From assembly GCA_032622095.1 (NCBI GenBank), contig CP136069.1, positions 43,500,194-43,564,193 on the forward strand: 64,000 nt of DNA, written 5' to 3'. The notes under the pieces were generated by a model. The model worked only from the letters and a program-made list of their open reading frames with translations. It did not search any database and had not been told where the DNA came from. Below are positions 858-51,713 of the stretch, piece after piece. How positions within the stretch are numbered: position 1 is the stretch's first letter; every line of letters starts with the position of its first letter. This DNA comes from Siphonodentalium dalli (Eukaryota; Mollusca; Scaphopoda; Gadilida; Siphonodentaliidae). Both the position numbers and the translations under genes were made by a program.

Positions 858-1086
858 TTAACCCTTTCATGGCGGGAGTTGCTCTGGCACAGCATTACAT
901 ATCATGTGCTCAGTGCATTATCTTATATGTGCGAGACTCTGGCTTACAGGGTCGAGGTCATTATTGCTAGGCCAATGCATTATCTTAGATATGCGAGGCT
1001 CCCTATGGGAGACTCGCATATATAAGAGAATGCTTTGGAACAATGTTTTCACAAATTTCAGGAAGCTCCAGTCATGGAAGGGTTAA
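858..1086. mobile_element. TTAA-flanked MITE, CCCTTTCATG-ended (piggyBac-like)
   Basis: TTAA sites at 858-861 and 1083-1086 flank inverted ends: CCCTTTCATGGC on the left and the complement of CCCTTCCATGAC on the right. TTAA targets with CCC-starting ends are typical of the piggyBac superfamily. The 229-bp element has no coding capacity. Its centre (about 968-1045) is the palindrome CCAATGCATTATCTTAGATA, which returns as TATATAAGAGAATGC, the same hairpin found in MITEs with other ends in this window. The left part (905-935) carries a decayed second arm. Confidence 0.7.
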
Positions 1087-1338
1087 GAAATAACACTTCT
1101 TTCGATTAACCCCTTTTATACTAAATCGATTCTTCCATTCAGTTATAAAAATATACATTGATAGCGTCTATTATTCACTGCGAGTGGTGTACCGGTAATA
1201 ACAGCAGACAACGGACAAAATAATATGTAGATACAGTAATGCAAGAGCAGAATGATTCCTATTCATTTGTGGGACATGTTCAGATAATAAATTCAACAAA
1301 CGACATAAATAGTTCATATGGGAACTTACTCGTCAATT
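1087..1338. repeat. dispersed repeat, copy 1
   Basis: The part at about 1150-1310 resembles 7780-7935: both contain GCAGAATGATTC, then GGGA(C/A)ATGTTCAG, then a TTCAACAAAC word, in the same order and spacing. No gene is visible. The repeat family is not identified. Confidence 0.45.
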
Positions 1339-1648
1339 TATCAATTTTATGGAGAAACATATGTATATTGGTGAAAACTGGACGTGTTTGACTAATACTG
1401 GGATTAAATGATAAGAAATAACTCTTGTTTCGATTAAGGTTATGAGTTATAACCGAACAGTTTGAAGATAAATTAACTTTATAACGTGTTATATATTTTG
1501 ACTTCAAATATTCAGTTATAACTGCATAACTCCAACCCTTTCTATATTAAACACTAAATGACGAGTTATTTCTTATCATTTAATCCCAGTATTAGTCAAA
1601 CACGTCCAGTTTTCACCAATATACATGTTTCGCTATAAAATTGATACA
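1339..1648. repeat. long inverted repeat (foldback)
   Basis: A left arm of about 93 bp (1339-1431) matches the reverse complement of the right arm (1559-1648) almost base for base. Examples are ACTAATACTGGGATTAAATG on the left and CATTTAATCCCAGTATTAGT on the right, including the core GACGTGTTTGAC. The loop is about 127 bp and AT-rich. The open frame on the minus strand here merely crosses the left arm. This is most likely a palindromic MITE or foldback element. Confidence 0.75.
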
Positions 1649-1870
1649 TTTTTTGCGATCAACAACTATGATTTTGGAATAAACATCAGTTCTGTCCATC
1701 ACTTATACAGTTGAATAGAAATTTGATCTTCATTGTTTCGATTCGTCGGGTCAATCGGAACCGACATTGCTGGTATCGTGCCACACATGTGTGCAGTTGC
1801 CACTGTTGCGCACACATATGTACTTTCTGGAGGAATGACACATACCGATTAATGTTATCGATATATAACC
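1649..1870. other. no recognised feature
   Basis: AT-rich sequence with no repeat partner found in the window and no credible gene. Reading frames crossing it run on into the element at 1871 and lack any recognisable motif. Confidence 0.4.
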
Positions 1871-2372
1871 TTAAAGGTACGGTTGGCCTTGGCGGTGGGT
1901 ATCCTGTGAAAATATTTCCACCCGTCAAAAACCGCCACAAACAGAAGGAACAACAAAATGTAGATATACTTTGTGCGTATACAAATAAGAAATATCGCAT
2001 AAACAGTATGTTATTGTCATATTTTTGACCATTGTTATGTAAACAAAAGCATAAAAAGTTACTTTTCTGGTGTTTGTTTATATTATGATGGTAAACACAA
2101 AGAGCGTTCTTTGTGGGTGAATTCCTGTTATGGAACGAATAAAGAGCGTTTATGCCATTTGTGTGTGATTAGCCAGCAGAATTGTGCTGTCTTCTGTAAC
2201 ACAATCAGGCTCTTGCTTAGGTAAAATATAGTAAATCTTTATGATAACATGCTGTTTACGCGATGATCATGGTATATATGAACGAAACTGTATGCGTTTT
2301 AATGTTTTTCTGTTTACGGTGATTGGAACAAATATGAATATTTTCGACAACTAAGGCCTCACGTGCCTTTAA
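1871..2372 (+). mobile_element. TTAA-flanked MITE, family A (copy 1)
   Basis: TTAA at 1871-1874 and 2369-2372 bound inverted ends AGGTACGG/AGGCACGTG with a GGCCTT(G/A)G continuation. The 502-bp body is nearly identical to 30539-31041 in the same orientation, so both are recent. It is non-coding and contains the recurring word AAAGAGCGTT twice, around 2099 and 2141. It is related in reverse orientation to 9060-9596 and to 59811-60402. Confidence 0.8.
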
Positions 2373-2517
2373 TGGCACAAACAACTGTCTTCAGTATTCC
2401 CTGAATTTACAGCTTATGATTAAAATATAGCCCACTAACCAATCATAAACTGTCCTGCAAATGGCGATGTTCGTTCCATTCCAGATAAGCGCCATTTACA
2501 ATATGTGCTAAGGGAGG
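2373..2517. other. no recognised feature
   Basis: AT-rich spacer between two MITEs. Nothing supportable is visible. Confidence 0.4.
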
Positions 2518-2740
2518 TTAAAGTGATGTGAAACACTCCGGTATGGTGATAATATAGAATTGGAGAATATATTGTTCAGAGTAGTTATTTTTACAAATAT
2601 TATATCTAAATTGACAACACAGACCGTCATTATTATATATTAATTAAATGCAGTGACTGCCGATGGCAAAATTGTTTTCGTTGGTTTATTGCCGATAGAA
2701 GCGTCCCGATTCGAGTAGTAAATATTTACAATTTAGCGTA
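2518..2740 (+). mobile_element. dispersed element, family B (copy 1)
   Basis: It begins at a TTAA (2518) with AAGTGATGTGAAACACTCCG and ends near AATATTTACAATT. The same sequence appears in reverse orientation at 8836-9046, where it follows a piece of family A. No coding content. It could be a TTAA-type MITE, but the second TTAA is not seen. Confidence 0.6.
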
Positions 2741-2891
2741 GTTCAGACAATGTTTTCTATGGACTAGTACGGTCGATTTGCTTGAGATTTTCAGTGATGT
2801 TAGTAAAATGCTAAATTCCTCCAGTTGGCACAGCACCTGAATACTAACTTACCAGTTTCTCGCACCGGAACGAGTACATGATATGTCTTTA

Positions 2892-2987
2892 AGGGCGATT
2901 ACACATGAAGCTGCAAGAAAATATCTGCAAGAAAATATCAGGTACAATTGTACTCTGATAGTTTCTTGCTGCAAAGATTACGCCCGT
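2892..2987. mobile_element. small palindromic MITE
   Basis: GGGCGATTACACATGAAGC and GCTGCAAGAAA on the left mirror TTTCTTGCTGCAAAGATTACGCCC on the right as a hairpin of about 96 bp. The apex is the perfect palindrome GTACAATTGTAC. Ends starting GGGCG would suit a PIF/Harbinger-like or other MITE, but the target duplication is not clear. Confidence 0.65.
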
Positions 2988-3986
2988 GAGAAAGCGGCGG
3001 GTTAGTTGACGTTGATTGAGCTCAATGTGACTAGTGTTCGTCGTGTTTGTTGAAGTGAATTACTGCGGGCAAACAACCTATAGTCCATATCGAATATTCA
3101 TAGAGTTATAAAGTGCTATGGAAAATTTAAAATACCACCTATTTTAACGAGAAAGGAACGCACCCTCGTCGTTGGAGTAGGGATGTGTGTTCGGGGACGC
3201 GGTGAGCTCTGATGTATGTTCTCATTACTTGATATTCCAACCAGTGTAACTAGTTGCACATCTTCCTACTTTTGGTCAAAATTTTGGTTTGGTTCATCTA
3301 TGCATCCCCTCTATGCATACAGTCCAAATTAAAGTAAAACAACTAAATCAAGGCATGCATGTGAGGTACCAAATTATAAAGCATCCCCATATACGCAGAG
3401 GGTTTCCGTTCGGGGGTGTCCACCTTGGGAAATTCAAAGCCAAACCAAGCCACATTATATACGCTCCTGTCTACTGTAAGGCGCTCATTTATACATGTCT
3501 ATCGATGATGGAACGGATCATTCAAAGTCAGTATCCGCATGACGCTATCGGCGTCATAATACCCATGTCAGTTGTATGGTGACTGTTGCAAATGACGTGT
3601 GATGAGAATGTATAAATTTCCTCTCGATCTGTCTCGATCGGAAATTCCAATTCACTCGTTTACCTCCGTAACGACTACATTAATTCCCCGGCTTTGTATT
3701 AGCCCAACGCACGTTGTTGTCCAGGTGAGCACATGCATGTTTACACGGATAGACGCTTGCGTTCAACCAAAGTGATCGCATCCCAACCAGAGAAACAACT
3801 ATTTGTTTCGCGATGGTTAATTCCAAAAAAAGCGTCGTCTCTTCTGCGGAAAATAAATTAAACAACGGGCATTTGGGATTCGATAAGGTCGGAATAACAT
3901 GTTTCCACTACATTTTTGTCGAAGCACATTTCCGATTGGAATGACAAAATAAATGCCCTAGGATAGCACTGAGATGGCCAATTTGT
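2988..3986. other. no recognised feature (1 kb)
   Basis: No repeat partner, splice-bounded exon or motif-bearing frame was found. Open frames here (for example 3289-3582) have no recognisable domain and look like chance. Confidence 0.4.
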
Positions 3987-4342
3987 TTAACCCTTTACCC
4001 AACAGAAGGGCCCTGTGCCAATGCATTCTCTTATATATGCGAGTCGACCATATGTCGCCTCGCATATATAAGAGAATGCATTGGCTTAACACATTAAAAA
4101 TTATAAAATTGTTTTTTTAGGCCAATGCATTCTCTTATATATGCGAGGCGACCTATGGTCGACTCGCATATATAAGATAATGCATTGGCACAGGGTATAA
4201 CTATAACCATCACAATGTGGTCAATGAGCCGGTTCCAATGATATCCATATTTGTATGGTTTTATTGAGACAGACCGAAGATATTTTAGGCTGTTGAAGCT
4301 TTATTTGGCCGGTTTTGGCCGGTTTGTTGGGTAAAGGGCTAA
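3987..4342 (+). mobile_element. TTAA MITE, CCCTTTACCCAACA-ended, complete
   Basis: TTAA at 3987 and its mutated partner CTAA at 4339 bound 14-bp perfect inverted ends, CCCTTTACCCAACA and TGTTGGGTAAAGGG. The interior carries two copies of the conserved hairpin (about 4019-4084 and 4121-4189), then a unique segment (4195-4320). A truncated inverted copy lies at 5097-5455. Non-coding; piggyBac-like by its TTAA target and CCC ends. Confidence 0.85.
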
Positions 4343-4662
4343 GCCTAACAGAAATGTCAGTTCCTCGCATATTGCAATTTGAAAGACTTGGTGCAACTGA
4401 TTGGAATGCACATTTATATGCATGTATATAGTAAACTGCTTACCATTTATGAACTGTAGCTGCTGATGGATATCAAAGGGAGATCATTTATACTTCAGAA
4501 TTAGGTGAAATGGTTTTGAACAGAAAATTATATTTCTAAACTGGAAAGCTAATATTGTGATCTATAGTGTGTTAGTTAAAATATATTTATTTTGTTAGGA
4601 AAAATGGCTTTTGTCTTGAAACCAAGGAAGTGACATATTTAGGAACGGTGCCACTGCAAATT
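4343..4662. other. no recognised feature
   Basis: AT-rich spacer with no repeat partner or credible frame. Confidence 0.4.
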
Positions 4663-4806
4663 GCGCTATCTGTATATATTGCACTATCTGTATATATTCC
4701 GCTATCTGTATATATTGCACTATCTGTATATATTCAGCTATCTGTATATATTCCGCTATCTGTATATATTCCGCTATCTGTATATATTGCACTATCTGTA
4801 TAAATT
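4663..4806. repeat. 18-bp minisatellite, 8 units
   Basis: Eight head-to-tail units of the form NNNCTATCTGTATATATT, differing mainly in their first three bases (GCG, GCA, CCG, CAG). The 18-bp period keeps a minus-strand frame open as a 6-residue repeat, which is a by-product of the array and not evidence of a protein. Confidence 0.95.
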
Positions 4807-5096
4807 CAGAAAAACGAACCAAGTCTTGCACTAACTGAGTGTACTATATAGCTATTAATGAATCAACTAGTTTGAAAGTGTAGCTTTGTTTGTGGACGAT
4901 GCGATTTGGTTCCCGACTACTATGACTACTATAAATTGGTCGGGGACTATATGATTTGATCCCCGACAAAACTTTAAAATTTGGTCCTGCTCGTGATGTG
5001 GACCAAATCGTGAGAGTCGGTGACCAAAGCGTCAACTGTGTACATGTGAATGATCGCGTGAAATGGTCCGGGACCAAACAGAAGATTTCCATTAAT
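4807..5096. repeat. spacer with a GGTCCCCGAC-like repeat
   Basis: Contains several TTGGT-CCCGAC and CGGGGAC words in both orientations (4905-5080). Related words occur at 7590-7675 (AGTTCCCCGACC, TGTGAATGA). Likely remnants of one MITE family; boundaries not resolvable. Confidence 0.3.
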
Positions 5097-5455
5097 TTAA
5101 CCCTTTACCCAACAAACCGGCCAAAAACGCCCAAATAAAGCTTCAACAGCCTAAAATATCTTCGGTCTGTCTCAATAACACCATACAAATATGGATATCA
5201 TTGGAACCGGCTCATTGACCACATTGTGATAGTTACAGTTATGCCCTGTGCCAATGCATTCTCTTATATATGCGAGTCGACCATAGGTCGCCTCGCATAT
5301 ATAAGAGAATGCATTGGCCTAAAACAAATATATAATTTTTTCTTACATTTGTTAACAATTAATATGTGTTAAGCCAATGCATTCTCTTATATATGCGAGG
5401 CGACCTATGGTCGACTCGCATATATAAGAGAATGTATTGGCACAGGGCCGCTCTG
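5097..5455 (-). mobile_element. TTAA MITE, CCCTTTACCCAACA-ended, truncated at one end
   Basis: TTAA at 5097 and CCCTTTACCCAACA at 5101 start an inverted copy of 3987-4342. The unique segment comes first, then two copies of the hairpin (about 5249-5318 and 5373-5442). Homology stops near 5455, so the terminal repeat on this side is missing. Confidence 0.8.
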
Positions 5456-5759
5456 AATGTTGATTTTGAGCCCATCGACTCCACCTCAGGTTTCAAAAAG
5501 AGACACGCAGGTTTCAATCATAAATGTACCCCACGATTAGCGAGAACACGTGTTTTTTTTATCCCCACCACAATGGGTCTACAACTCCAAGTTTACTGTG
5601 TTTCACATCCGATCCGTTTATTTATTCAGATCAATAAGATGAATTCATAGCAAAGGCAGAAAGTGTTGTTTCTGCAACTGTTTTCCCATTCTGCTCTACA
5701 GTTTACTCATGCATGTACATTGTACAACTCTAAAAGCCATTGCCAACACTGTATAGCTG
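5456..5759. other. no recognised feature
   Basis: No domain-bearing frame. The region may be 5' debris of the following LINE fragment. Confidence 0.35.
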
Positions 5760-6300
5760 TGTGCAAACCCTACCGAAAAATCAACTGCCCCTACTTTCTT
5801 GCGACAAGATATGACAATTCATCCATCCAGCTACCGTAAACTATGGAATAGCCTTCCACCAGAAGCAAAATGTTGTGACTCAGTTTCAGAATTCAAGAGA
5901 CATATCTCCAAAGATCGCAATACCATACCATCATATCGTTATAAAACGTTTACAAGACCAGGGTCAAATCCACCACTGTCGTCTGGGAACCTATTACAGT
6001 AACTTGAAATATGACCTGTTTTGTAATCACCTAAATAATAATCCATTCTGCGATTGTGGGGAACTTGAGACCTCCGAACATTTTTTACTTCACTGTCCGA
6101 TTTACAAAAACGAGAGAGATAACTGTTTTGTGGGTCCTATTATGACATTAAATGTGAACACTTTGCTTAATGGATCGGTTAATTTAACGTACAGTGAAAA
6201 TGCAGTCATTTTCATGTCACTCCAACATTTCATATATAGAACCAAACGATTGAACTGTGAATCATCACTGACTGACATACATACCTCATCTAAAGGGTAG
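5760..6300 (+). mobile_element. LINE C-terminal fragment, frameshifted
   Basis: Two overlapping plus-strand frames give the usual tail of a non-LTR retrotransposon protein. The first (about 5799-6002) has HPSSYRKLWNSLPPEAK, the 'LWNSLP' block. The second (about 5950-6300) has HHCRLGTYYSNLK, then the zinc knuckle CDCGELETSEHFLLHCP and a closing stop at 6298. At least two frame breaks separate the blocks, and a third piece resembling the segment before LWNSLP lies upstream (about 5775-5815). No reverse transcriptase is present. The knuckle (C-x-C-x8-H-x4-C) is the nucleic-acid-binding end of CR1/L2/Jockey-type ORF2 proteins in many invertebrates. The copy is dead. Confidence 0.75.
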
Positions 6301-6720
6301 TGAAAACAAATCAGAGCGCTCTCACAGCAAAATTATGTAATGCGGGGGGGGGGGGGTCGGACCTGCAGCGATCAGCCGCGGATATGCTCGCGGGTGTTTG
6401 TGGAGCGGACAATTCGTCACTCGAGACCAAAAAATTATGAAGCAATTTTATATCGCGGAAATGGCCACGAATAAGCCTAGGCTTACTGCCAGATCCCCTA
6501 ATCTCACATGTATGTTTGTGTATGTTATATTTGTATTTATGTGCCTACTTGAGAAATAAAATATTGTTTACACTAAAAGTCAACTGCACAATTCACGCAT
6601 GCAAATGTTACTTATCACAGAGATGGAGCATATATACACTGAGAAAAAATCGGGTCAAATTGACTAAGTTATGGTTAGTCAGAAGCAAAATCATGTTTAA
6701 TATTCATTGCTAAATGTTCA
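6301..6720. other. no gene; 13-base poly-G tract
   Basis: A run of 13 G (6344-6356) follows the LINE fragment. The rest holds no recognised feature. Confidence 0.4.
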
Positions 6721-7252
6721 ATTTCCGACTAAATCCTGAAAAAGTTACCCATAATTCTGCTGTGGTAATGGAGTCGATTAATTAGGGCATTACTGTATAT
6801 CCCTCAACAGACAAAAATTGTAATCTGCACGAGTTTTAGAGAATTGATAAAACTTGTCCTGCTTTCAACTCGGTGTCGGATTACGGGTATATCGTCTGGA
6901 TGAGAATTGGAATAATTTCCACCAAATTACATTTTCACCTTTCCGGTGACTATTACAAGTTAGTCGTTATGACGCAATCCTGGTATAATGCCCCAATCAG
7001 TCGTTTTGACTGATAATTAAGACAAACATCATCATAGTCATTATGAATAATGTTCTGAATTATGACTAAATTTAGTTATCCTATGGGCAAACTTTTAACT
7101 AACCTAAGTTAGTCATATTGGCTACCCCCCCCCCCCCGCACATTTATATATCAAGTGCATGAGGCTGAAAAATAAGGAGTTTTATCTACATTAAAATTCT
7201 CATCAGCCGTAATCGACTTCCCAGTCGGAACAGCCTATAAATGGTCCCACTT
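6721..7252. repeat. dispersed repeat and poly-C tract
   Basis: The part at 6721-6797 matches 55525-55606 closely (CCGACTAAATCCTGAAAA, ATAATTCTGCTGTGG, GGGCATTACTGTA). A run of 13 C sits at 7125-7137. The rest (6798-7124) is AT-rich with scattered GTTAGTCA/TGACTAA words in both orientations, suggesting an old MITE. Confidence 0.45.
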
Positions 7253-7422
7253 CTTGACAGGGTTCCTCGAATGATTTATTGCGTATTCTGACAGGGTTCC
7301 TCGAATGATGTATTGCGTATTCTGACAGGGTTCCTCGAATGATTTATTGCGTATTCTGACAGGGTTCCTCGAATGATGTATTGCGTATTCTGACATGGTT
7401 CCTCGAATGATGTATTGCGTAT
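7253..7422. repeat. 34-bp minisatellite, 5 units
   Basis: Five direct units of TCTGACAGGGTTCCTCGAAT followed by GAT(T/G)TATTGCGTAT. Units 1 and 3 have TTTATT while 2, 4 and 5 have TGTATT, so part of the array expanded as a dimer. No coding role is evident. Confidence 0.95.
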
Positions 7423-8183
7423 TCGGAAGCCATCTATCCAATGATCCAATTTGATCTAATATACAAAACGCAAGAAAGCATTTACCTGCAATAGTGTCTT
7501 AACTATGCATGATACGATGGCAAGCACAATATTGATATCCTTTCTACAGAATGTTCCCCATATTAGAAAATGCATGTAAACGCAGACAATTTCCCCGGCA
7601 TAGTCCCTGACTAAATCAGAGGCAAAAATAGTTCCCCGACCAAAAATATGACGCCGACTATTTCTCACCATGTGAATGACCCTTAAGCATGTGATAAAAT
7701 GTCCATGGCTATCATTGCTGATGAAAAAGCCGCCTTAATCCTTTCAATAGTAAATGGATTCTCCCATTGAGCCATACAAGTTTACATTGGAACGGTTGAT
7801 TATTCATTTGGGGGTGGGTGTTCAGGTCATAAATGCAAACAACAGACGAATAACAGATAATACAAAAGCAGAATGATTCATTGGTGGGAAATGTTCAGTT
7901 AATAAGTTCAACAAACAACCATTGGTACATTTTAGATACCATAATATAATCATATCTCACCTATGGTCCCATTAACATGAGGAACTGAAGTTTTTAAACG
8001 TTTTGAAGCGTCCATACTTTCGTTTCGACCAGAAGCAATATACAATAAAGAGCGTTTTCAATTTTGATCGTTGCTACTCTTTTTTATCGTAAAAAAGAAT
8101 CACTGCTTTTGTGGATTTTTGCGATGCATGACCAACTGATGGTGATTGGGTAACTATTAGCAAAATGTTCTACCAATCATCGA
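7423..8183. repeat. spacer containing dispersed repeat copy 2
   Basis: About 7780-7935 is the partner of 1150-1310. The rest has the AGTTCCCCGACC words noted for 4807-5096, and an AATAAAGAGCGTTTT word at 8044 shared with family A elements. No gene seen. Confidence 0.4.
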
Positions 8184-8664
8184 CAAGCCTGAGTATAAGG
8201 TGCCTGTCATTTGCAGAATGAGGTCCCCAGAGGGTGAATATGGTGATGCTATCCCGCATAGCGGGCTAGCAAACCAAATTCACCCTCAGGGGACCTCATT
8301 CTGCATGCCCACATCTGCAATGGGAGACATAGACTCAGATTGAAGTTCCCAAATGGTGAATATTGTGGTGTACACCCATTGGGAACCTCGATTTTGCAAT
8401 GTGTCATCTGCCAATTTGGGGGATATAGAGAAACTAAACTAAACAAGAAATAGAATCTACGTGAAGAAGTTTCTATATAAATTTGATAATAACAAGAAAC
8501 TTTCCAGAGAAGATGTGGCCAGAGAAGATGTGGCCTAAGCAGAATGAGGTCACCAGAGGATGAGTTTTGTGATACTAGCCCGCTATATGCGTGATAGCGT
8601 CACTAAATTCACCCTCTGTGGACCTCATTCGGCAAATGAAAGACACACTATAATCAGGCTTGAT
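8184..8664. mobile_element. double-hairpin element, family C (copy 1)
   Basis: Inverted ends of roughly 50 bp start CAAGCCTGA and continue through TTTGC(A/C)GAATGAGGTC. Each end is itself a palindrome: GAATGAGGTCCCCAGAGGGT returns as CACCCTCAGGGGACCTCATTC around a GC-rich turn. The central part has a weaker hairpin (CCAAATGGTGAAT with ACACCCATTGGGA). The second complete copy is 24693-25150. Non-coding. Confidence 0.75.
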
Positions 8665-8741
8665 CAGCAACCTAAGTCGGTCACTTGCTGCATTGATAAT
8701 TCTGTATTCGTCCTACTTTTATATTCGGCCTACTGTCAGTG

Positions 8742-9059
8742 TTAAAGGCACAGGCGGCGTTCATTGCAGATATATTCATATTTGTTCAAATCGCCATCGA
8801 CAGAAGGAATATTAAAATATATATAGTTTTGTTCAATTGTAAATATTTACTATACTCGATTCGGGACGCATCTATCGGCGATAAACTGACGAAATGATTT
8901 CGCCATCGAGCGTCACTGCATTTAATTAATATATAAGAATGACGATGAGTGTTGTCAATTTGGATATGATATTTGTAAAAATTACTACTTTCAACAATGA
9001 TTATTCTCAATTTATCACCCTACCGGAGTGCTTCACGTCACTTTAATTGGATAGAAATG
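8742..9059. mobile_element. family A fragment joined to family B element
   Basis: TTAA at 8742 starts 94 bp that repeat the left end of the neighbouring element at 9060. At about 8836 the sequence switches to the reverse copy of family B (partner 2518-2740), ending at TTAA 9043-9046. The arrangement fits a B insertion or a duplication of the A end during insertion. Confidence 0.55.
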
Positions 9060-9596
9060 TTAAAGGTACGGGCGGCGTTCGTTGCAGAAATATTCATATT
9101 TGTTCAAATCGCCATCAACAGAATGAATATTATAATATATATAGTTTTGTTCATATGCCAAACATAATCAGCGCGTAAATAGTATAATGCCGTCAAGACG
9201 TACGATGGTGTACGTAAACAAGAGCCTGCTTGTGTTACAGAAGTTGTGCTTCTATTTACACAACACAGCGCAATTCTATTGGTTAATCACACACAAATGA
9301 TATAAACGCTCTTTATTATTTCCATATCAGGAAAACAGTAACAAATAACGCTCTTTATGTTTACCATATCCGGATCTAAACAAAAGCCAAGTAATGTAAC
9401 GTTTTTTGCTTTTGTTTACATAACAAAGGGGAAAAATTGACAATAACATACTGTTTATGCCATATTTCTGATTTGTGTAAGAACAAAGTCTGTCTATATT
9501 TTACTATTCTTTCTGTTTATGGCGGTTTTTGACGGAGTTGAATATTTTAACAGCATGCCCACCGCCAACACCGCCCGTATCTTTAAACTCCCCATT
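9060..9596 (-). mobile_element. TTAA-flanked MITE, family A (copy 2, inverted)
   Basis: TTAA at 9060 and 9593 with ends AGGTACGGGCGGCG and, in reverse, AGATACGGGCGGTG. The body is the diverged reverse complement of 1871-2372 (shared AACGCTCTTTAT words and TTGCTTTTGTTTACATAACA). Non-coding. Confidence 0.7.
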
Positions 9597-9768
9597 TCCA
9601 AACAACTATTTTGTTCTCAAATCATAAGGCACTGAAACACTGGGAAAAATGTTGGAAATTGATCAATGATTATAGTCTGTTATTCATTGTGTGACAGTCG
9701 TCATATCTTTCTCAAATTAAGACGAAAAGAGGGTATGATCAAGGGTGTATCATAGCATAGCCAGCGCT
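9597..9768. other. no recognised feature
   Basis: Short AT-rich spacer. Confidence 0.4.
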
Positions 9769-10061
9769 TTAACCCTTTCAGTGCCAGGGGCCGATCTCAT
9801 CGGCCTTAATTTACGGTCTGTAAAATCGGCCCTAAAAAAATGAAAAAATAAAAAACATTTTTTTGTTTTTAGATTTATAAAACAATTATTAAAATTGTAA
9901 AAAATTGTAAAAAATAATATCAAATGATGAAAAATTGTTAGGCCAATGCATTCTCTTATATATGCGAGACGACCTATGGTCGACTCGCATATATAAGAGA
10001 ATGCATTGACACAGGGTATATGGGTTAATACAAAAATCGGCCCTGGCACTCAAAGGGTTAA
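9769..10061. mobile_element. TTAA MITE, CCCTTT(C/G)AGTGCCAGGG-ended
   Basis: TTAA at 9769 and 10058 flank inverted ends CCCTTTCAGTGCCAGGG and the complement of CCCTTTGAGTGCCAGGG. These ends differ from those at 3987, yet the interior (about 9941-10012) holds the same conserved hairpin, CCAATGCATTCTCTTATATA. This is the clearest case of one hairpin in two TTAA families. Confidence 0.85.
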
Positions 10062-22309: not shown

Positions 22310-22582
22310 TATATATATATGAGAATGCACTGGCTTATAGTAAATATAGGTAGGCCGATGAATTCTCTTATATATGCGAGGATCCCTATGGGAGACTGGC
22401 ATACATGTATATCACAGAGATACTCGCATATATAAGAGAATGCATTGGCATAGGGTTTTCGAAATATTTCAGGAAGCTCCAGTTATGGAAGGGTTTAGGT
22501 CGAACTGCTACATATATATAATAGAATGCAATGGCGCAGGATATTTAATGCTGAACCAGCTCAGCTCCCGCCGTCAAGCTTA
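22310..22582. mobile_element. composite of two TTAA MITE remnants with the shared hairpin
   Basis: A hairpin copy (about 22353-22448) has a loop expanded by about 30 bp, then AGGAAGCTCCAGTTATGGAA, the right end of the 858-1086 family. From 22500 the sequence is the reverse of that family's left part, ending AGCTCCCGCCGTCAAGCTTAA at 22582. Two copies thus sit tail to tail. Confidence 0.6.
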
Positions 22583-31444: not shown

Positions 31445-33818
31445 TTGTCTTTAGAGAGAGATTCTTTATTGCCTCCTTGGAGGAGAGATATTTTGTACAA
31501 GTATATACATACATGTAGATATAAATACAACGGTGAAGTGTGAACATAATTAATATAGTAATTACATAAAAGTAACGTGCATGCCTAATGTCAGGCTCAC
31601 TTTGGTACGGGCGCGTCGCGTCTTATCTGTCAAACTTTCATCGGCGTGAGAAAAGCAAAATGCATTACAATTATAGCAATATATATAATGCGCATCCGAA
31701 TGTTTGAGCCCATACAGACAAATAGTATAGCATTTCACATATCTACACTGTCCCGATACTTGACAACATTACATATATCTTTATCTGATATATATAATGC
31801 CCAAATTGATCGTCAACCATATTTTGTTTTCTTCTCTTCTGCATTTAAGCTACGTCACATGCGTGTGGGCTGTAATTTTCTGAATTAATCTGAGAACAAT
31901 TATTTTGCCCTATTTAGGGAACACATTACAAATAAAAAAGATGCAGACATATCAATAACAGAGTCCCGATAGTGTCCAACGGCGTCCAAGAGTGATGGGT
32001 GATCACTTCCCAAGATTAGAGACAACAAGTCCTCCTTCTCTATAGACCGAACATATACAAATAAACTTAAATACCGCAGTAGTCGATGACTCGTTCCCAG
32101 AAACTATTTCGCAGTGACAGGATCGGGAATGAAGAGCAAGTGAACATAATGTGCTCAAGGTCGTTATCGTATATACACAAGCACTGACGACATGTTAGAT
32201 TATTTGGGTACGTTGTCTTGTTAAGAAGAATTGCAAGGTTCTTGTATTTTGATGATAAGGTAGGTTGTGAGCGCAAACGCTTCCAAACGTACCAGCCGGA
32301 GAGTGGGTTGGGAACAACCTTCCAGAACACACTCAGGTCAGAATCGTTTGAGACTGACGTGCGCCACGATGAAATATAAAACAGTTTTACTGTCTCCCTC
32401 ACGATACGTTTCCATGTAGTTTGGTTTGGAAATACACCAAGGTCTAAAAGATTATCCAAGAAGGAATCAAGGCGATAGGATCTTAATATAGGCAGTATCT
32501 CCTTGACGAATCCAGATGCCGGTCTGTTGTACAAGCGCTGCAAATGTGCTTTGGCCAGGAACATTTTCAGTGGATCCTGTTTGTGTGATGGAAGGTTTAT
32601 AAGAATACCAAGGAAGCCCAGTTTACGAATGTGTGTTTCCATCTCCATTGGTAAGATACCCAAAAGTCCGAGAGAAAGTTTTGTACTGGCGCGTCTAGGC
32701 AGACTCTGAGCAGATTTAACACATGTACGTAATGAACGTTCAACGATTGTTATAGCAGTTGTTTGTTGTAATGACATCACCGCACAACCGTACAGTGCTT
32801 TCGGTTGGACGACAGTGTTGATTATGTTGCACATTGTAATTGGCGTAGCATGGCGTAGTAATCGGTTACCAGCGATGGCGAAGAAAGTTTTTCTCATTAT
32901 TGACGAAATATGTGAACTGTGAGACACAACAGACACGAACTTCCCTTGTACCAAGCCAAGGTGTGCACATTCGGTATCCTCTGTTAGTGAATCGGAACCC
33001 AGCATCTAGATACGTAGATTACGATTATGTGCGGCCTTTGACTCATTAAAGACGACAGTCTTACTTTTTGAGCACGAGAAACTGAATCTCCAGTTGATAC
33101 TGTACTTGTAGCATGTGTCTATCAGATTGTCCAGACCGTGTTTAGTTAGCGACATAATGGTGATGTCGTCTGCTGTAGTTGGGGAAACACATGAAATTGA
33201 ACCAACATGTAGGCCAAACGGAGAATTCCTCAAGTCTATTAGTAGATCGTTTATGTACACCAGGTAGCACAGTGGTGAGAGGACCGCCCCTTGTCTTGTC
33301 CCTTGGCCGATGCTGAACTTATCAGAGAATCTGTTGTTAGAGAACACCATGCTGTTCACATCCGTGTGGATGTTGCCGAGAAGTCTGATGAATTTGCTGG
33401 AAAAGCCCAGACGTATAAATTTAAACAGAAGGCCTTCGTACCACACTCTATCGAAGGCCTTTTTATAATCCAGGAATGCTACAAACACTTTTGATCCATT
33501 ATCTTTTGCGTGTGATATACCTTCATGTAAGACAAATGACGTGATGTTGCAACCAAAACCTTTTTGGAATCCATATTGTAATTGATCCGGGAAGTTAGAA
33601 AGTTCCCTTGCGCTGAGGATTCTTTGCAGTATAATTTTTTCAAACAGTTTATAGATCACAGGTAGGAGGGTTATGGCCCGGTAGCTGTCGGGAGACGTAG
33701 CAGGCTTATGCTGTCCTAGGCCTTTATACAGAGGAATAATAACACCAAGTTTCATACCCGGTGGGATCCATTCTAGATCCAGTATGGCGTTGAATAAAAA
33801 TACATACATTAAATACAT
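31445..33818 (-). mobile_element. LINE retrotransposon, 5'-truncated, with RT and C-terminal domain
   Basis: On the minus strand, 33818 to 33006 encodes the reverse transcriptase: PPGMKLGVIIPLYKG (residues 19-33), FLDYKKAFDRVW (115-126, first catalytic Asp), GTRQGAVLSPL (173-183) and PTTADDI (213-219). An in-frame TAG at 33006-33008 interrupts it; the same frame continues to 32067 as 312 further codons with the knuckle CRQC...EHIMFTC near its end. The frame then stops, but a shifted frame carries on to 31900 (EKEDLLSLILGSDHPSLLDA), a C-terminal extension. The 3' end, near 31445-31480, reads GGAGGCAATAAAGAA on the minus strand. YADD has become TADD. The endonuclease is absent: homology begins just before RT. 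The copy is dead but young enough to keep about 640 codons of LINE text. Confidence 0.9.
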
Positions 33819-33904
33819 TAAGACTCAATCTTAGTTCTCACAATACATTAGCGCAATACATATATTTGACTAACATACATATCACAATATTACACGTGCA
33901 TGCA

Positions 33905-41228: not shown

Positions 41229-41400
41229 TATCCTGTATGAGATTTACGAGTCGACATCCAAGATTGCAACGCAATAAACAACCGTGCTTATAATTATATA
41301 GCCTGTGACGGCTTGTCAGATTAACGAATTCTGTGTTTTGCGAGTTCAAAACAATTAACACCAAAAATACGGAGATATGCGACAGTCATCCTTCCTTGGT

Positions 41401-43194: not shown

Positions 43195-43210
43195 CACCAG
43201 CAGGGGGCGT
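43195..43210 (+). promoter_or_regulatory. possible CTCF-type site
   Basis: TCACCAGCAGGGGGCG matches the core of the bilaterian CTCF motif (CCASYAGRKGGCRS-like, 14 of the core positions). A single motif has limited predictive value, and occupancy cannot be judged from sequence. Confidence 0.4.
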
Positions 43211-44636
43211 CTATTATCTCGAATCAAGGTCATTTGCGTAATCGTTATGCAATATAACATAGCGTATATATATCATTCATATTGATTGAAACGAAGGAAT
43301 ACAATTAATAAGTGGCCACCGTTTAATGTTGATTTCCATGCAAATACCCAACGCAAAGATTGTGAAATTCAACTGCGAGGATTATAAGACTTGCATGCAT
43401 GATTGCTTGGTTTATGATAATACTGATACTAAGAGACGTGTATATGGCGTATGAGCTTGCAACAGGTTTCATATAGTCATGTCTGTTGCGTGGTATTCAA
43501 TTCCAAATATAATACACTGTTAAAAGTGTCCGTAATATTCGTTATAATTATGTCACCGTTAATTTTCTGCCGGAGCTGGAAGTCTATAGAAAGCAATCAA
43601 AACTGTGCGGATAAATACATCAGACACCCACTAGTTCCCGGATACCGTCATACATATTTTTTTTGTAACGAAGTTGTACATAGTAATTATACAGTTAAAG
43701 ATTCCTCTACTAGACTCGTTCCTTAAATTAGTTACACGTATGGGTGGGTTTATATTCACACTGACCTGTATTATGCGTCATATATACATATGGCAAACCA
43801 GGTTTTGTCAAACGGGACGTTACATTGTGGACTGTTTTTGTTTACTCAATCTGGAAATGGCTAGTTTACCGACGAGTTCGCCCGAAGAGTGCACGTCGCA
43901 GTCAACAGATTGTTAGATTAAATCTGGTTGAATCGCTATGAAATCAGGGCGATGTGAATTTGCGTGCCAGCCGCCGTTACTGGTGTCCTGCGAGAGAGTG
44001 TGATCGTTCATTCCGTGATGATTTATCCCCATCTGAGTTGCGATCCGTAGTTAAATCACATTCCCGATGATTTCGTAGTTTATTTTTTCCAATGTGCCGT
44101 TTAAACAGACAGTTCGACCGGCATTGTGAGTTGATGACTCGGCAAAGTGATGCCATTGGGATTATGTTAAAAAATATCTACCCAATTTATGAATGATACA
44201 AGGGGACACACTGCGAATTCAATTACATGCATGTCATAATTGTCAACGTGTGTCCCCAAAATGTTCCAAACGATGTTGTATATCCTGAAAATAAACTCAT
44301 AATGAACTTATTTCAAAAACACAAATAAACTCATATCGGCATTGTTTGAATCTAAATACCATAGGCGATATAATTAATTAATCTAAATCGACTTACCAGA
44401 TATGCACTCCTTATAATGCGATTTAACGGTGGCCTGTCCCATACAATGGAATAACTGGTATAAGTCCAATGTGGGCTTATTTTATAATCAAATAAGTCCA
44501 ATATGAACCTATGTCAATATATTGGTCCAAAATGAACATAATTTGCAAGATGGTATGTTGTGTATAATCAGCAACAGCTTTATGTTGATGGAAACGAATC
44601 AACAAAATCACGTAACTTGTACAGTACAAAGATCAT
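43211..44636. other. no recognised gene (1.4 kb)
   Basis: Frames at 43451-43916 have no known domain. Short words such as AGTCCAATATGAAC recur near 44460-44540. Nothing else supportable. Confidence 0.35.
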
Positions 44637-45030
44637 TAGACACACGTACGTGTAACTTGTAATATGCGTTACTATGGTATTGCCATAGAGACTCGATTGT
44701 GTTTATTTGTCATTCTGTGCTGATCCACACATTACTGGTTTCCTGATGAATGCTACATGCTGATGTTGATTTCCGTTCTGTTAAACCACGACAGGCATGT
44801 AAGGCACCCCCAATTAGACCAGCGATACACTTATTTGGCTTGAATCAAATTAAATTTGGTTAGCAGAATATGGGATTATCCCTCTTCGCTACAAGTTTCG
44901 TATGCCACGCATTGGACACAAAACTTCTGAACTATTTGGCCTTGTATGTGTGGGCGTCATGGTCATGTGAGGCAGGTGACTTTCATTGGCAATGACAACA
45001 CACGTTACAAGTTACTCGTACGTGTGTCTG
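44637..45030. mobile_element. TIR element, AGACACACGTACG-ended
   Basis: AGACACACGTACGTGTAACTT at the left mirrors AGTTACTCGTACGTGTGTCT at the right; about 25-bp inverted ends around a 345-bp non-coding interior. Target duplication unclear. Confidence 0.65.
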
Positions 45031-45655
45031 ATCCTGGATATTACTGTCGGGTTTTCTGACGTCAACATGCATATGCATGCTTTCCACATATTACAGACTC
45101 GTTAAATCGTCAGTTTAAACCATGTTTCAACCCTATGTCAGCAATCAGAAGCAGAACGATCGATTGAAGTTGATGTGTAGTGTTCTTCCAACATAAATGT
45201 CGAGGTCAAGAGATGTAGAGGCGAATGTTATATTGTGAAGTGTGTTTCTGTCATGTATGAACATCTCATAAGGTGGGGAACGGCACAATCTCGTTTATGC
45301 CGTACAACATGTCAATGACACATTCAAACTATTGGAAGCAAGTAACTTTCAAGCAATGGCTTAACTAACGATAACTATATTTACTTACCATGACCCCAAA
45401 CAGTAAAGGCATTTTCATGTAGGTCAAGTCAGTGACTTGATATATTGTTAAAATTGCCAACTGATAAAAACAAGGCCCAAGTGACCTCATGTCATTTAAA
45501 ATCTTGCCTTCCGGGTGGCCCATCAAAGGAACTCTTAATCTTCTCATATAACTCATTGGGTAGCAAAATGCAGTTCATCATCTCCAAAAGAAAACTTTTT
45601 GGATTGTTCAGAAATGGGGCGTTTGATCCTTCGTCGGAGATATTGCCAAATCTTT
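45031..45655 (-). other. spacer with a weak exon-like segment on the minus strand
   Basis: Around 45391-45540 a minus-strand frame (GHPEGKILNDMRSLGPCFYQ in part) ends at a good donor, GTCATG-GTAAGTAA (complement at 45384-45397). No convincing acceptor or known motif supports it. The plus-strand frame 45445-45696 runs into the array that follows. Confidence 0.2.
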
Positions 45656-47065
45656 CTGACGCCCACCCAACAATACCTCCTACGTGGACCCCCTAGATGG
45701 ACAAAACGGAAAAACGTTTGTCCTGAAACTGTCTCCCCATGGGTCATTGAAGACTGTTTAGGATTTTAGTGTAGTTGGTTCTCTCTCTTATTATTTCAGA
45801 CACTCTCCCCACAAAACCTCCTACATGGACCCCCTAGATGGACAAAACGGAAAACAAATTTTCTCCTGAAACTGTCTCTACATGGGTCAATGAAGACTGT
45901 TTAGGATTTTAGTGCAGTTGGTTCTCTCTCTTATTCTTTCAGGCACTCACACCACAACAGCTCATACATGGACCCCCTAGATGAACAAAACGGAAAACGT
46001 TTGTCCTGAAACTCTCTCCCCATGGGTCATTGTAAGACTGTTTAGGATTTTAGTGTAGTTGGTTCTCTCTCTTATTATTTCAGACACTCTCCCCACAAAA
46101 CCTCCTACATGGACCCCCTAGATGGACAAAACGGAAAACAAATTTTCTCCTGAAACTGTCTCTACATGGGTCAATGAAGACTGTTTAGGATTTTAGTGCA
46201 GTTGGTTCTCTCTCTTATTCTTTCAGGCACTCACACCACAACAGCTCATACATGGACCCCCTAGATGAACAAAACGGAAAACGTTTGTCCTGAAACTCTC
46301 TCCCCATGGGTCATTGAAGACTGTTTAGGATTTTAGTGTAGTTGGTTCTCTCTCTTATTATTTCAGACACTCTCCCCACAAAACCTCCTACATGGACCCC
46401 CTAGATGGACAAAACGGAAAACAAATTTTCTCCTGAAACTGTCTCTACATGGGTCAATGAAGACTGTTTAGGATTTTAGTGCAGTTGGTTCTCTCTCTTA
46501 TTCTTTCAGGCACTCACACCACAACAGCTCATACATGGACCCCCTAGATGAACAAAACGGAAAACGTTTGTCCTGAAACTCTCTCCCCATGGGTCATTGA
46601 AGACTGTTTAGGATTTTAGTGTAGTTGGTTCTCTCTCTTATTATTTCAGACACTCTCCCCACAAAACCTCCTACATGGACCCCCTAGATGGACAAAACGG
46701 AAAACAAATTTTCTCCTGAAACTGTCTCTACATGGGTCAATGAAGACTGTTTAGGATTTTAGTGCAGTTGGTTCTCTCTCTTATTCTTTCAGGCACTCAC
46801 ACCACAACAGCTCATACATGGACCCCCTAGATGAACAAAACGGAAAACGTTTCTCCTGAAACTCTCTCCCCATGGGTCATTGTAAGACTGTTTAGGATTT
46901 TAGTGTAGTTGGTTCTCTCTCTTATTCTTTCAGGCACTCACACCACAACATCTCCTACATGGACCCCCTAGATGAACAAAACGGAAAACGTTTCTCCTGA
47001 AACTCTCTCCCCATGGGTCAATGAAGACTCTTTAGGATTTTAGTGTAGTTGATTCTCTCTCTTAT
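45656..47065 (+). repeat. 141/143-bp dimeric tandem array, 10 units
   Basis: GGACCCCCTAGATG recurs with spacings 141, 143, 141, 143, 140, 143, 140, 143, 141. Odd units read CACAAAACCTCCTACATGG, even units CACAACAGCTCATACATGG, so the array expanded as a dimer of about 284 bp. Units 2-10 each begin after GTTCTCTCTCTTATTNTTTCAG, a strong 3'-splice-site-like tract. Two units (donors at 46032 and 46882) also have ATT-GTAAGA after 89 bases; the others read ATTGAAGA or CAATGAAGA. Every frame has stops, so it is not coding as it stands. Confidence 0.9.
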
Positions 47066-47664
47066 TTTATTGATCATGCAGACGTACGCTGCCGAGAGCG
47101 ATTTGTGATTCTAACACTCGATGCAGAAGCTTCGCTAGCTGCTTCGTAACAACGAGGCTACATGGCACTCTAATTACAGGATCGCGATGAGGATCACGAA
47201 ACAGACAACGTGACTCACTCGTGTCACCTTGTCGCCTGAAGCGTTCTACTGTCAACGAGAAATACACGCTCACATCCGCTCTGAAAATTAGCTTTCAAGT
47301 TATCTCATTATCCGCATGCTAACCCCATGTATCTATGTCGAGCAGCGCCGATAAAGAGCTATTTGCTAGCAAAACATAACGCTCTTCATATATATTATTG
47401 AGCAACAGTATAACAAATGTACAGATCCTGGCATAGGCGCTGGGTGTTGCATTGAATCGCGTTCGTAAATTCAATGTGGGTGACACATTAATTATTAGAC
47501 TGTTCGTTGTTCTAGTGATTGTGGCCGAATACCAAATATATAGATGTCAACACGTCATGCACAACTCCTAACTGTGTTTACCTAATTCTCAATATGGCAA
47601 TCCTAATGTGTACTATATACAGCAACTGAATTTGTGTTTATATTTGCTAATTTCAGTTCACTTG
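47066..47664. other. no recognised feature
   Basis: A (47340-47400) pair of AAAGAGCTATTT/ AACGCTCTTCAT words recalls family A. No gene. Confidence 0.35.
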
Positions 47665-48203
47665 AGTTATTAGATCATGTCATGAATCTCTACTCTGGCT
47701 AACGCCCGTAGATATCATATTCCACCAGTACAAAACCTGGGAACTTTTTGAAGTTTTGACAGGGAACCTTATAAAGTCACCAAAAAAAACGCAAGGAATA
47801 TATTTCTTAGTTATTATTTGTTCCTTAATAATATACTTCACTGTACGTGAAGGTCCCAACTAGAATGTCCCGATTTAAGTGACGTTGTGAGCAATTTGCT
47901 TTGCGTCGCTTACAATTATGGAATTTCTCCTGGGTAATTAATTCGATGTTTATTGCTTTTTCGGCTCACAATAGTCACAGCAAAGCATGCAATTTCCAGT
48001 TGGGACCTTCGATCACATATACAGTAAAGTTCATTATCAAGGAACATGTAATAACTAAGACATATATTCCCTGCGTTATTTTTTCGACTTTATAAGGTTC
48101 TCTGTCAAAACTTCAAAAAGTTCCCAGATTTTGTACTGGTGGAATATGATCTCTACGGGCGTTAGCCAGAGTAGAGATTCATGGCATGGTCTAGTGAGTT
48201 ATA
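47665..48203. mobile_element. 540-bp foldback element, near-perfect arms
   Basis: CATGAATCTCTACTCTGGCT and AACGCCCGTAGATATCATATT at the left are mirrored by AATATGATCTCTACGGGCGTT and AGCCAGAGTAGAGATTCATG at the right. The match continues inward through AACTTTTTGAAGTTTTGACA and GGTCCCAACT to a short loop near 47930. Non-coding. A fragment of the same family is at 20386-20432. Confidence 0.85.
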
Positions 48204-49926
48204 TAATAAATAAACCACCAAAACGAAATTTCCAAATTTAATATAAGTATGTGTGTACTGTATTACCCAGAGTATCCGGAAAATTCACCTCACCCATAGA
48301 AACCTGTATGTGTGGTCACACATAGAAACATGTATGTTTGGTTGAGGTGAATGTTTCACCAGCCTGTGACAACAACCCATGACACTTTTAGTTAGCGCCC
48401 CAATGGTAGGCAAACGACCACTATTGACTATCTCTCCCTCGTAATATATATTATATTCATGGATACACTAACTCAGTATGGATGTTCATAGATTCGATTT
48501 CAGGTTGAAAAGTTTAAATGTTAGTCATCAAGTAATCTACTAAATTTTCGTCTCAGCGATCTTTGCATGAAACACACGGGTACCCTTGTCATATTACTGC
48601 AGATAACCGACCGTAAATGGTGGGTTATCATCCCAGTATAGCTTCTAAATTCTTGGAGTTCGAGTTTATTGTGATTTATTAATTCAAATCTCTTTCTTCA
48701 GAAGATCCAATTCGAGACCAATTAGGAGCCAATCCCGTCTTCTGCTTAACTAGACCCCGGCTATACGTCGCTTCAGTGCAACCAAGCCAGTAGTAAGTCT
48801 CAAGGCAAAACTATTGCTGGGCTCGTTCCTAGCGCTCGCCTTCTCTATGCTAAGGCTCAACGTTCCGGTATGTCGTGTAGTTGGACGGAATAGTGAGCGG
48901 ATTGAATGAGCCAGATACGAGACTAAAATATTGCCGGCCTAATTTTAGTAGGCGTCGTGACGTATTAATTCCAATAGGAAATCGGGGGATGCCCTGCTTT
49001 ACATATGATTGTAAACAATGTAACTCGGACTGAGCTCCATTTATGAAAAACAACGATAAATAGGCATTCACAAAGATACATGAAATATTTTGCCAACAAT
49101 ATATCTATGTTCAGAGAATCATTGTTAAGTTTTTGGGTTCTTTCAGTCAGTCATTTATTGCTTTCAGAATCGATTGACGGAAACCCAAAAAGTTGGATAG
49201 CAACGGGGATGCTCTTTTCTGGTTTGTTGGTTGGTTGGGGAATTTCTCGCATGACGTCATTTGCCAAATGGCGGATTTAATGTCCTGCATGGTCTCTCAT
49301 GGCGGCGAATAATGACAGAGCGTCATGGAGCCAGCGTCTAGTCTAGTCTTCTGCTAGTCGTCTATCTCTTGAATGTCAACGCTGTCAAAGGGGAACAATC
49401 ACTTCCGCCAAGAAAATTAGCTTCCCCATTATCTCATTAACAACATGTGATTGTCGGAACAAACTCACGAGACACACAGACTACGCATCGGATGTGTTTT
49501 ATAGCTAGCACCACATGATCAATCTTGCACCACAGACATTCGACAGAGCAATATTGTCGACGAATTTACCTACGGCTGTCTCGTTGTGTACCTCGTCTTG
49601 GAACGGCGGTGCCCAACAGTTTTACCAACATACATGTAGATACTATATATTGATACTGGATCCAATAGTAGCTACAGCCCAGAAAGGGTTCCAGGTTACT
49701 ATACATGTACATGTAAATCAATGGACTCAAACCTTTCAAATTTCCCAACATTTCCTCGCGGAAATTCGTACATAATCCTGCATAATCGACATATAATGTC
49801 AAATAGGTACATAATGTGATTATTTGATTATTTAAGCAGATAATGAATCCTTACCCGTTATTTCGTTTTACACATGTTAAAGAGCGTACACCTGAAATGT
49901 CGCGAGTTGGCTTATTTATGTTTATG
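48204..49926. other. no recognised gene; small hairpin
   Basis: ATTCACCTCA and TGAGGTGAAT (48284-48352) bracket two copies of ATAGAAAC-TGTATGT. Frames at 48850-49802 have no known domain. Nothing else supportable. Confidence 0.35.
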
Positions 49927-50033
49927 TCATAATCTGCTTAGAATCGCCTCATTATGAGTCGACAATGTGACTAATATGTACTTATTTTCAGCACATTGTC
50001 GATTCAAAATGGGGCGATTCTAAGCAGATTATC
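49927..50033. repeat. hairpin, about 107 bp
   Basis: ATAATCTGCTTAGAATCGCC then GTCGACAATGTG return as CACATTGTCGATTC then GGCGATTCTAAGCAGATTAT. Flanking AAGCAGATAAT and AAGTAGATAAT words may mark the outer ends of a larger MITE (49845-50075). Confidence 0.7.
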
Positions 50034-51435
50034 TACATTCACCTAAAACATGTTGTATAATAAGTAGATAATGTTCTGGTTTTCGAGAGAACAGGCTGAA
50101 TTTCCAGCTTCGAGGAACTGATATACATGTATCTTTGAGGTTGGAACAATTTTCCACCTCAGCGCCATCCCGCACATCAACCTTAGAAACAATCGGATAT
50201 CGTATCGAAAACGGCTATTAAATTTCCTGTTTACGCTTCAATGGCGGGGAGAATAAAAGTTTCCTGGGCGATTGCGTAAAGTGTACATATTAACTAGATT
50301 ACGATATTACGCGAGAAGCAATAGTTTTCTTTATAATTCGTCTTTATTGGCCGAGTTCGGAGATGAGTGTAAGATAAATATGCCATCAGCATAATGACGG
50401 AATATTTGGTCCCGGATTAAGTGCTGCGTTAGTGTTAGCAACACGTCCTCGGGCTCATTCTTTCATCCACGCCGTTGTGTTGTGGTGTTAGAAAAGGGTC
50501 TCGATTGCATGACATGTCTGCGCATAACACCGATATCGCACAGTTCGGGAGCAGTAAATTGCACGATCTCTGTTGACAATTTCGGAGGGAAGAGCTGCGT
50601 CGGCCCCTCCTATATATATATATATATATATATAGTGTTTCAGGAGTCCTGTCGATTGCACTCAACCCCATGACAGTCTGGATAAAGTTGCGAATAGCGG
50701 AATAATAATTTTTCTTTCTATGCACACAAATCTATGTCTTATATATGATGGTAATTAGATATATCTGTAGAATAAGTGTTGTTCTATACTGTGTGCCGCG
50801 AAAATATAGACAGGTGGCTATATTAAAATAGGTTAGACTATCACCCCTGGTCAATTAAAGAAAGTCATTCTCACATTTGACCCTCGATTATAAATAATTT
50901 GGGGTATTGTTTCAATGAAAATATATAGCTTCAAGCAATATAGGTCCAAGAGTGATCCGATAATCATATTCATAACAACGGTCTTAAGTGCGCATTAATC
51001 TCTCTGAGTGTCAAGGGAAATCGGAATAGAGTTTTAGCTGATTTGGGCTTCCATACAACATCGATCTTGTTCAGTAGACGAATATCAACACTTAAAAATA
51101 AGACACATCAGTCTGGAAGCTTGTAGACAATTGCATTGCCAAACTATCAAATATATTTACCACTTGGTTCAATGAACGTGATCCAATACTCATTTATGTC
51201 AACACTATATATGTAATGTTCCAAATACTCAAATATAACATTGATTTATTGCTAATAGCTCCCGTGGCGTCTTGATCACCAAACGGTACCACAACAACTA
51301 TTTATTGAAAGTGAGAAATGTTCGACTGATTGTCTAATAGCAATATACATGTGTATACTGTGTACTGAAGATTGTGAATTAGAAATATATCAAAGATCAA
51401 TCTCAAACTATCTTCAATGTGAAATTCCCTGCTGC
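50034..51435. other. no gene; (TA)n microsatellite and a stray element end
   Basis: A (TA)n run of about 22 bases ends at 50632. GACTATCACCCCTGGTCAA at 50837 is an isolated terminal sequence of the 51757 foldback family. No credible gene. Confidence 0.4.
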
Positions 51436-51713
51436 TACAGTTATGCCCTGTGCCAATGCATTCTCTTATATATGCGAGTCGACCATAGGTCGCCTCGCAT
51501 ATATAAGAGAATGCATTCTTTAACAATTTAATAATTTTTTCTTACATTTTTTAACAATTTTTATAATATTTTTCTACATTCTTTGACAGTTTTATCATTT
51601 TTAATATGTGTTAAGCCAATGCATTCTCTTATATATGCGAGGCGACCTATGGTCGACTCGCATATATAAGAGAAAGCATTGGCACAGGGCCGTTCTGTTG
51701 GGTAAAGGGTTAA
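51436..51713 (+). mobile_element. TTAA MITE, CCCTTTACCCAACA-ended, left-truncated
   Basis: The right end TGTTGGGTAAAGGGTTAA (TTAA 51710-51713) is intact. Two hairpin copies (about 51450-51516 and 51614-51681) surround an AT-rich centre. Homology on the left starts at CTACAGTTATGCCCTG, so the left terminal repeat is lost. Confidence 0.8.

Follow-up and report, generated by a model that had tools for sequence, protein, structure and literature searches.

One hairpin core is shared by miniature transposons with unrelated ends in the scaphopod Siphonodentalium dalli

The DNA treated here, called the window throughout, is a stretch of 64,000 nucleotides from the scaphopod mollusc Siphonodentalium dalli (assembly GCA_032622095.1, contig CP136069.1, positions 43,500,194 to 43,564,193 of the forward strand). 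It contains several miniature inverted-repeat transposable elements (MITEs), and inside these lies a hairpin, a 67-nt imperfect palindrome that consists of a 26-bp stem, a T-C mismatch, a 5-bp stem and a 3-nt centre. A 20-nt piece of the arm has 20 matches in the window at up to 3 mismatches, where 0.01 would be expected. An earlier note on this DNA had described one conserved hairpin, present at about nine sites, inside TTAA-flanked MITEs with three different kinds of ends. The hairpin and its differing hosts are indeed there, with eight intact copies and one broken cluster making up the nine sites (Table 1). The families that carry it are called A, S, C and E.

Table 1. Hairpins and the elements that hold them in the window
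Feature	Positions	Strand	Remarks
Intact 67-nt hairpins (n = 8)	972-1038, 4018-4084, 4122-4188, 5251-5317, 5374-5440, 9943-10009, 51453-51519, 51616-51682		
Broken hairpin cluster (ninth site)	22314-22534		4 arm matches
C-family TTAA MITE, CCCTTTCATGGCGG / CCCTTCCATGACTG ends	858-1086	+	one type II hairpin, 972-1038; degenerate first hairpin, arm at 910
A-family TTAA MITE, CCCTTTACCCAACA ends	3987-4342	+	two inverted hairpins, 4018-4084 and 4122-4188
A-family MITE, opposite orientation	5097-5452	-	hairpins 5251-5317 and 5374-5440; left end at 5097
S-family TTAA MITE, CCCTTT(C/G)AGTGCCAGG ends	9769-10061	-	one hairpin, 9943-10009
Damaged C-like element	22314-22534	+	4 arm matches, intact 67-nt hairpin missing; right end C-like, near 22468-22496; left end missing
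A-family MITE	51436-51713	-	hairpins 51453-51519 and 51616-51682; end at 51696-51713; left (window) end missing

The TTAA end types that had been described are present at 858, where the end CCCTTTCATG was verified, at 3987, at 5097 (as a left end) and at 9769, where the ends of the S element read CCCTTTCAGTGCCAGG/CCCTTTGAGTGCCAGG. Two further placements have to be given up: there is no CCCTTTCATG at 22310, only a similar right end further along, and no left end at 51436, where the sole end of the element is its right one. Other ends are damaged, with the right TTAA of the A element at 3987 mutated to CTAA and the right end of the A element at 5097 lost near 5452. The hairpin at 4018-4084 (plus strand), our example copy, has one change within its 5-bp stem. 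The word TATATAAG occurs in both arms, as had been stated.

The hairpin is very abundant in the genome, which was searched over 2,226,750,531 bases (2.23 Gb) on 9 contigs. The 26-nt arm occurs 214,225 + 213,288 times at up to 2 mismatches, with none for the reversed control, and the exact inner stem, its two halves separated by exactly 15 bases, has 146,484 matches against one for the reversed pattern. Counting two arms to a hairpin, we estimate that about 214,000 hairpins are present and make up close to 0.6% of the genome. Eight stretches of 8 kb were also taken at round coordinates on seven contigs, and two of them (L035 and L036; L numbers denote fetched loci, in which arms were scored by Hamming scan) hold arms at up to 6 mismatches. 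Viral contigs gave 0 exact matches. As a separate observation, contig C1 has large tandem arrays at 735542-785694 and 825885-920839, with units of ∼14.55 kb and ∼11.17 kb, and there are A elements in each unit.

Three of the carriers, A, S and C, are piggyBac-like MITE families with TTAA flanks, inverted ends starting with CCCTTT, and no coding region in the copies read. The earlier note had proposed looking for hairpin copies outside TTAA elements, and beyond the window such copies exist in the fourth family, E. Its elements start with GTGACCCGCCATATC and are flanked by a 4-bp AWWT duplication, mostly ATAT, instead of TTAA. This duplication is exact in 12 of 16 copies, with the fifth base matching in none, and by eye it is exact in five of six further copies. 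The end words of the families occur 91,621 (A), 23,232 (S), 18,051 (E) and 3,213 (C) times in the genome, against 0 for the controls. TTAA belongs to the end words, which are found as inverted pairs; 37 A and S elements show it at both ends because they were selected for this. Among C copies with both ends, TTAA is present in L119, L135, L136 and L128, and TTAC in L131.

Nearly all copies fetched by their paired ends, from the matches listed, have hairpin arms: 19 of 19 for A, 17 of 18 for S and 16 of 16 for E, the S exception (L074) having kept its tail and lost the hairpin. Conversely, 34 hairpin clusters were fetched via the hairpin, and the ends nearby are those of C in 10, E in 7, S in 6 and A in 5. 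Here C is over-represented because eleven of the clusters (L117-L128 without L123) were chosen for lacking exact A, S and E ends. Another hairpin-bearing repeat, with no recognised ends, was found twice (L028, L121). Hairpin-free TTAA MITEs are present too (in L001, L029 and L035), and a search by exact pattern gave one hairpin-free E palindrome with an A/T centre (L137) and one A copy that resembles a deletion. Two nearly identical loci (L022, L023) hold E elements in which the first hairpin is interrupted in its loop by GGC-rich sequence. On contig C1, at 3257437-3272879 and 4907860-4924003, there are same-direction runs of C ends with spacings such as 111, 222 and 370 bases, which look as if C elements became tandem arrays.

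What these families have in common is larger than the hairpin. The shared unit, called the core below, consists of CCCTGTG, the hairpin and an AT-rich tail, and is mostly present in two inverted copies. A cargo exchanged between families, as the earlier note had put it, is still the best fit, with the correction that the cargo is this whole unit. CCCTGTG and the hairpin are identical across the A, S and E consensuses, and the tails of these consensuses agree at 54/63, 49/56 and 50/61 positions (82-88%). Compared with dinucleotide shuffles, the A-, S+ and E+ tails reach z scores of 8.6-15.2, and the A- tail reaches 9.3 and 5.9 with the C-type tails of L015 and L017; several other pairings go down to chance, for example E+ with E-, or L028 with all. 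At the ends, members of one family resemble each other past CCCTTT (shuffles scoring as high: 1/300 for A, 0/300 for C and 0/300 for S), whereas different families agree there no better than by chance, the lowest of 18 comparisons having 25/300 mononucleotide shuffles as good. Both kinds of shuffles are rough measures, as the sequences are short and partly AT-rich. Since the ends are chance-like between families while the core is identical or similar, ends and core must have different histories, which suggests that an internal core passed between transposon families.

To ask how the core varies within a family, variants were counted in 44 copies found by their ends (17 A, 13 S and 14 E), six S or E copies at duplicated loci being excluded. 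Columns in CpG, in A/T runs of 4 or more and in the end words used for finding were excluded, and the alignments are without L038 and L042 (A) and L074 (S). Variants shared by at least two copies occur in 0/240 columns of the arms, 0/55 of the loops and 10/169 of the outer parts (p 1.2e-4); elsewhere they occur in 40/232 columns of tails and interior and in 7/121 of the S interior. Within the A family alone the arms have 0/96 such columns and the outer parts 9/115 (p 0.004). Private changes show a different picture: arms have 0.0098 per site and outer parts 0.0106 (p 0.8), while tails reach 0.0308 and loops 0.0295. The claim that the hairpin is better conserved than the ends is accordingly correct between families; within families it applies to variants shared by several copies, clearly so for A, and not to private changes.

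The two arms can also be compared with each other. Across 119 hairpins there are 115 changed arm positions, 108 of them changed in one arm and 7 in both; six of the seven are complementary, and four of these are one change of the C lineage. The T-C mismatch between the stem parts is retained in 115 of the 119. Between lineages, two-sided changes of pairs do occur: in a sample of 26 chosen hairpins (24 distinct, type II ones included), 5 of 31 pairs have them, and the 29 cells affected compare with 11.8 in shuffles, none of 500 shuffles being as high, although the number of two-sided pairs is itself not unusual (78/500). Taken together, the invariant arms, the paired changes between lineages and the one-armed decay indicate that the palindrome is preserved in source lineages, which altered it in a paired way, and is lost from single copies by way of one arm. 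This pattern fits a role in multiplication, and speaks against simple copying of one arm onto the other.

The C family is the most diverged. Six C copies have 89.5-94.3% identity to their own consensus, and A copies diverge from theirs by ∼3% over outer parts and tail. In many C copies the loops are of type II (CTCCC/GGGAG) and the interior is short; in other copies with C ends (L120, L128, L133, L134) the loops are of type I (CGACC/GGTCG) and the AT-rich tail is present. At up to 1 mismatch, the genome has 32,012 occurrences of the type II loop word (control 0). With its divergence and compensated loop changes, C looks ancestral, and the probable order would be from C with type II loops to C with type I loops, after which A, S and E would have captured the core.

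The genome has at least 128 matches to piggyBac-like transposase genes, 116 of 649 candidates having been scored. Independent copies in three groups have 5' tips that read TTAA-CCCTTT and have sharp borders, so this tip is common to piggyBac-like elements here. Hairpins number 0 in 20 stretches at the 5' side (1.25 kb), 20 stretches at the 3' side (1.4 kb) and six whole loci (L003-L008); a lone arm with 7 mismatches and no partner is present in L101. A matching end pair was located in one of 20 loci (L113/L155), and many 3' ends may therefore fall outside the stretches read. One locus, L111, starts with CCCTTTACCCATC and resembles A in its first letters only. Where A, S or E ends pair over a long distance (L056, L076, L159, L160), this is explained by nested insertions in MITEs or by neighbouring copies, and by eye, with no family search run, no transposase-like frame was recognised in them.

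The best explanation, in which we have moderate confidence, is that a portable core was taken over by MITEs with unrelated ends and that its palindrome is a cis-acting site for their multiplication. This core, which is mostly found as an inverted pair, consists of CCCTGTG, the 67-nt palindrome (26 + 5 bp, the T-C mismatch being retained) and an AT-rich tail built of ∼30-bp units. It would be oldest in the TTAA (piggyBac-like) family C. The families A, S and E, with ends unrelated to one another, would have acquired it and then multiplied. The palindrome would be required for this, so that source lineages hold it invariant and ordinary copies decay one arm at a time. By analogy with known transposon ends, its most likely role would be in subterminal binding or synapsis, with a transposase or a host DNA-binding dimer as the partner; a subterminal binding site would be the most ordinary putative function for A, S and C, and leaves E uncovered. 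Judged by sequence, the sharing of a core by MITE families with unrelated ends is real, very abundant and unusual; its function is what we infer.

Several observations weigh against this explanation. Six of the 34 hairpin clusters have none of the four ends nearby, although one of these (L015:81) is probably part of a C element. The end-selected copies were all taken from a single contig, within its first 13 Mb. The gap between arms and outer parts rests on A, to which 9 of the 10 outer columns belong; in S the counts are 0/48 for arms and 0/40 for outer parts. Private changes, too, are fewer in the arms than in tail, loop and S interior, and unequal mutation may therefore contribute. No hairpin was seen beside the 26 piggyBac-like transposase genes examined, most of whose 3' ends were not located. 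Of the 20 loci and L003-L008, taken from at least 128 matches, none showed A, S or C ends, and a transposase gene with E ends did not turn up either. Finally, E is not a TTAA family and is not accounted for by a single piggyBac-type binding site, and yet its arms are invariant as well (0/96 columns, against 27/152 in tail and interior, p 9e-7). That its duplication differs while its arms are invariant leaves room for a factor that several superfamilies share, or for a core capable of moving on its own. On a speculative and, in our view, improbable reading, the core would be a portable amplifier, a selfish cis-element boosting the multiplication of any MITE that captures it, whichever transposase superfamily is at work, and unrelated families would in this way have reached 10^4 to 10^5 copies.

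A core moving on its own, close to the independent palindromic element that the earlier note had considered, would itself be a transposon with CCCTGTG...CACAGGG ends and perhaps a preference for TA; it would have entered several MITEs through its own activity and then been carried along. This too is unlikely, and the support for it is thin. The border of homology in the families compared does lie at CCCTGTG/CACAGGG on either side; in E the core has TA to its left and right, and in S, L028/L121 and L012 it has TA on the side that can be read, but TA is absent from the A and C consensus. An E core lacking E ends is found at L027 and again at L014 (duplicated as L123), but no clear target duplication surrounds L027 or L014. 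The hairpin-free E palindrome of L137 would agree with such a transposon, but by exact pattern it is a single case against 18,051 E ends. Moreover, drift would be expected in a sequence that is only carried along, and the arms within A and E are invariant.

That the hairpin yields a small RNA or serves as a two-way promoter, as the earlier note had suggested, appears quite unlikely on sequence grounds. It has the length and folding of a short precursor hairpin (z of -7.9 to -12.5 in RNA folding of 4 hairpins), its two-sided pair changes would agree with a folded product, and TATATAAG stands in both arms. In 5 loci, however, there was no Rfam match at the gathering score, the weaker matches, mostly to microRNA families, being typical of a long hairpin, and a promoter does not require paired arms, so that neither invariance over the whole 26-bp arm nor two-sided pair changes would be needed for it. 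Hairpin-templated copying of arm onto arm, by which the arms would stay alike and their invariance would need no function, was judged unlikely, and very doubtful as a cause of that invariance, from the 108 one-armed changes against 7 two-armed ones (four of these a single C-lineage change) and from retention of the T-C mismatch. Two-sided changes between lineages would be expected from such copying, and long palindromes do rearrange: L001, L069 and L121 have central deletions in the hairpin and in L010 a piece of arm has been copied into the loop, changes that misfolding of the palindrome while it is copied would be expected to produce. A single diverged TTAA family from which A, S and C inherited the hairpin, with ends and hairpin equally diverged, was the case set against the earlier note's own reading, and although all three begin with TTAA-CCCTTT and hold homologous cores, it is ruled out by chance-level ends beside 82-88% identical tails, by the same tip on hairpin-free piggyBac-like elements, and by the core in E, which is not TTAA.

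Parts of this arrangement are known from other systems. The Drosophila element Tetris is reportedly a foldback element. Foldback elements and Tm1 of root-knot nematodes resemble the present elements in having long inverted arms with internal motifs, and some Tm1 elements reportedly carry a histone hairpin motif; Tm1 differs in its 9-bp duplications and its own ends, and the likeness is one of description, with no sequence comparison (PMC3169594). The ends of piggyBac contain a 19-bp palindrome that is bound by a dimer of the transposase C-terminal domains (CRD) (PMC7351741), and those of piggyBat contain imperfect palindromes together with inhibitory subterminal parts (PMC11707139). The present elements resemble these in having palindromes within transposon ends, whereas the one described here is 67 nt long, is word-for-word common to families with different ends and was not seen in the piggyBac-like loci examined. 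For mPing, internal MITE parts are reported to promote or inhibit transposition (PMC9921582); there the internal effect is within one family, and here one internal part is found in several. Like piggyBac-like MITEs, A, S and C have TTAA flanks and inverted CCCTTT ends, and the start TTAA-CCCTTT is found in autonomous piggyBac-like elements of their genome too; they differ in that a hairpin core links families of unrelated ends and that one carrier, E, is not TTAA. In titles and abstract openings of the literature, no description was found of this sequence or of a hairpin core common to MITEs with unrelated ends.

The window has other repeats and a possible reverse transcriptase. Tandem repeats of 18 bp and 34 bp lie at 4660-4800 and 7221-7458, the first between two oppositely oriented A elements. 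An array of about ten units of 140-143 bp, with a higher period of 283 bp, occupies 45610-47066, and a ∼138-bp tandem repeat in five copies, with AAGGTCAAGG-like words, occupies 55888-56582. On the minus strand at 32067-33824, two adjoining open reading frames resemble a non-LTR reverse transcriptase, as judged by eye with no family search.

MITE families commonly have common ends and differing interiors. The elements described here show the reverse, a common inside with differing ends, across two kinds of target duplication. If the core aids multiplication under any transposase, the success of a MITE can hinge on a transferable internal element. If it is merely a passenger, its very many copies would serve as a natural marker for exchange among families of transposons.

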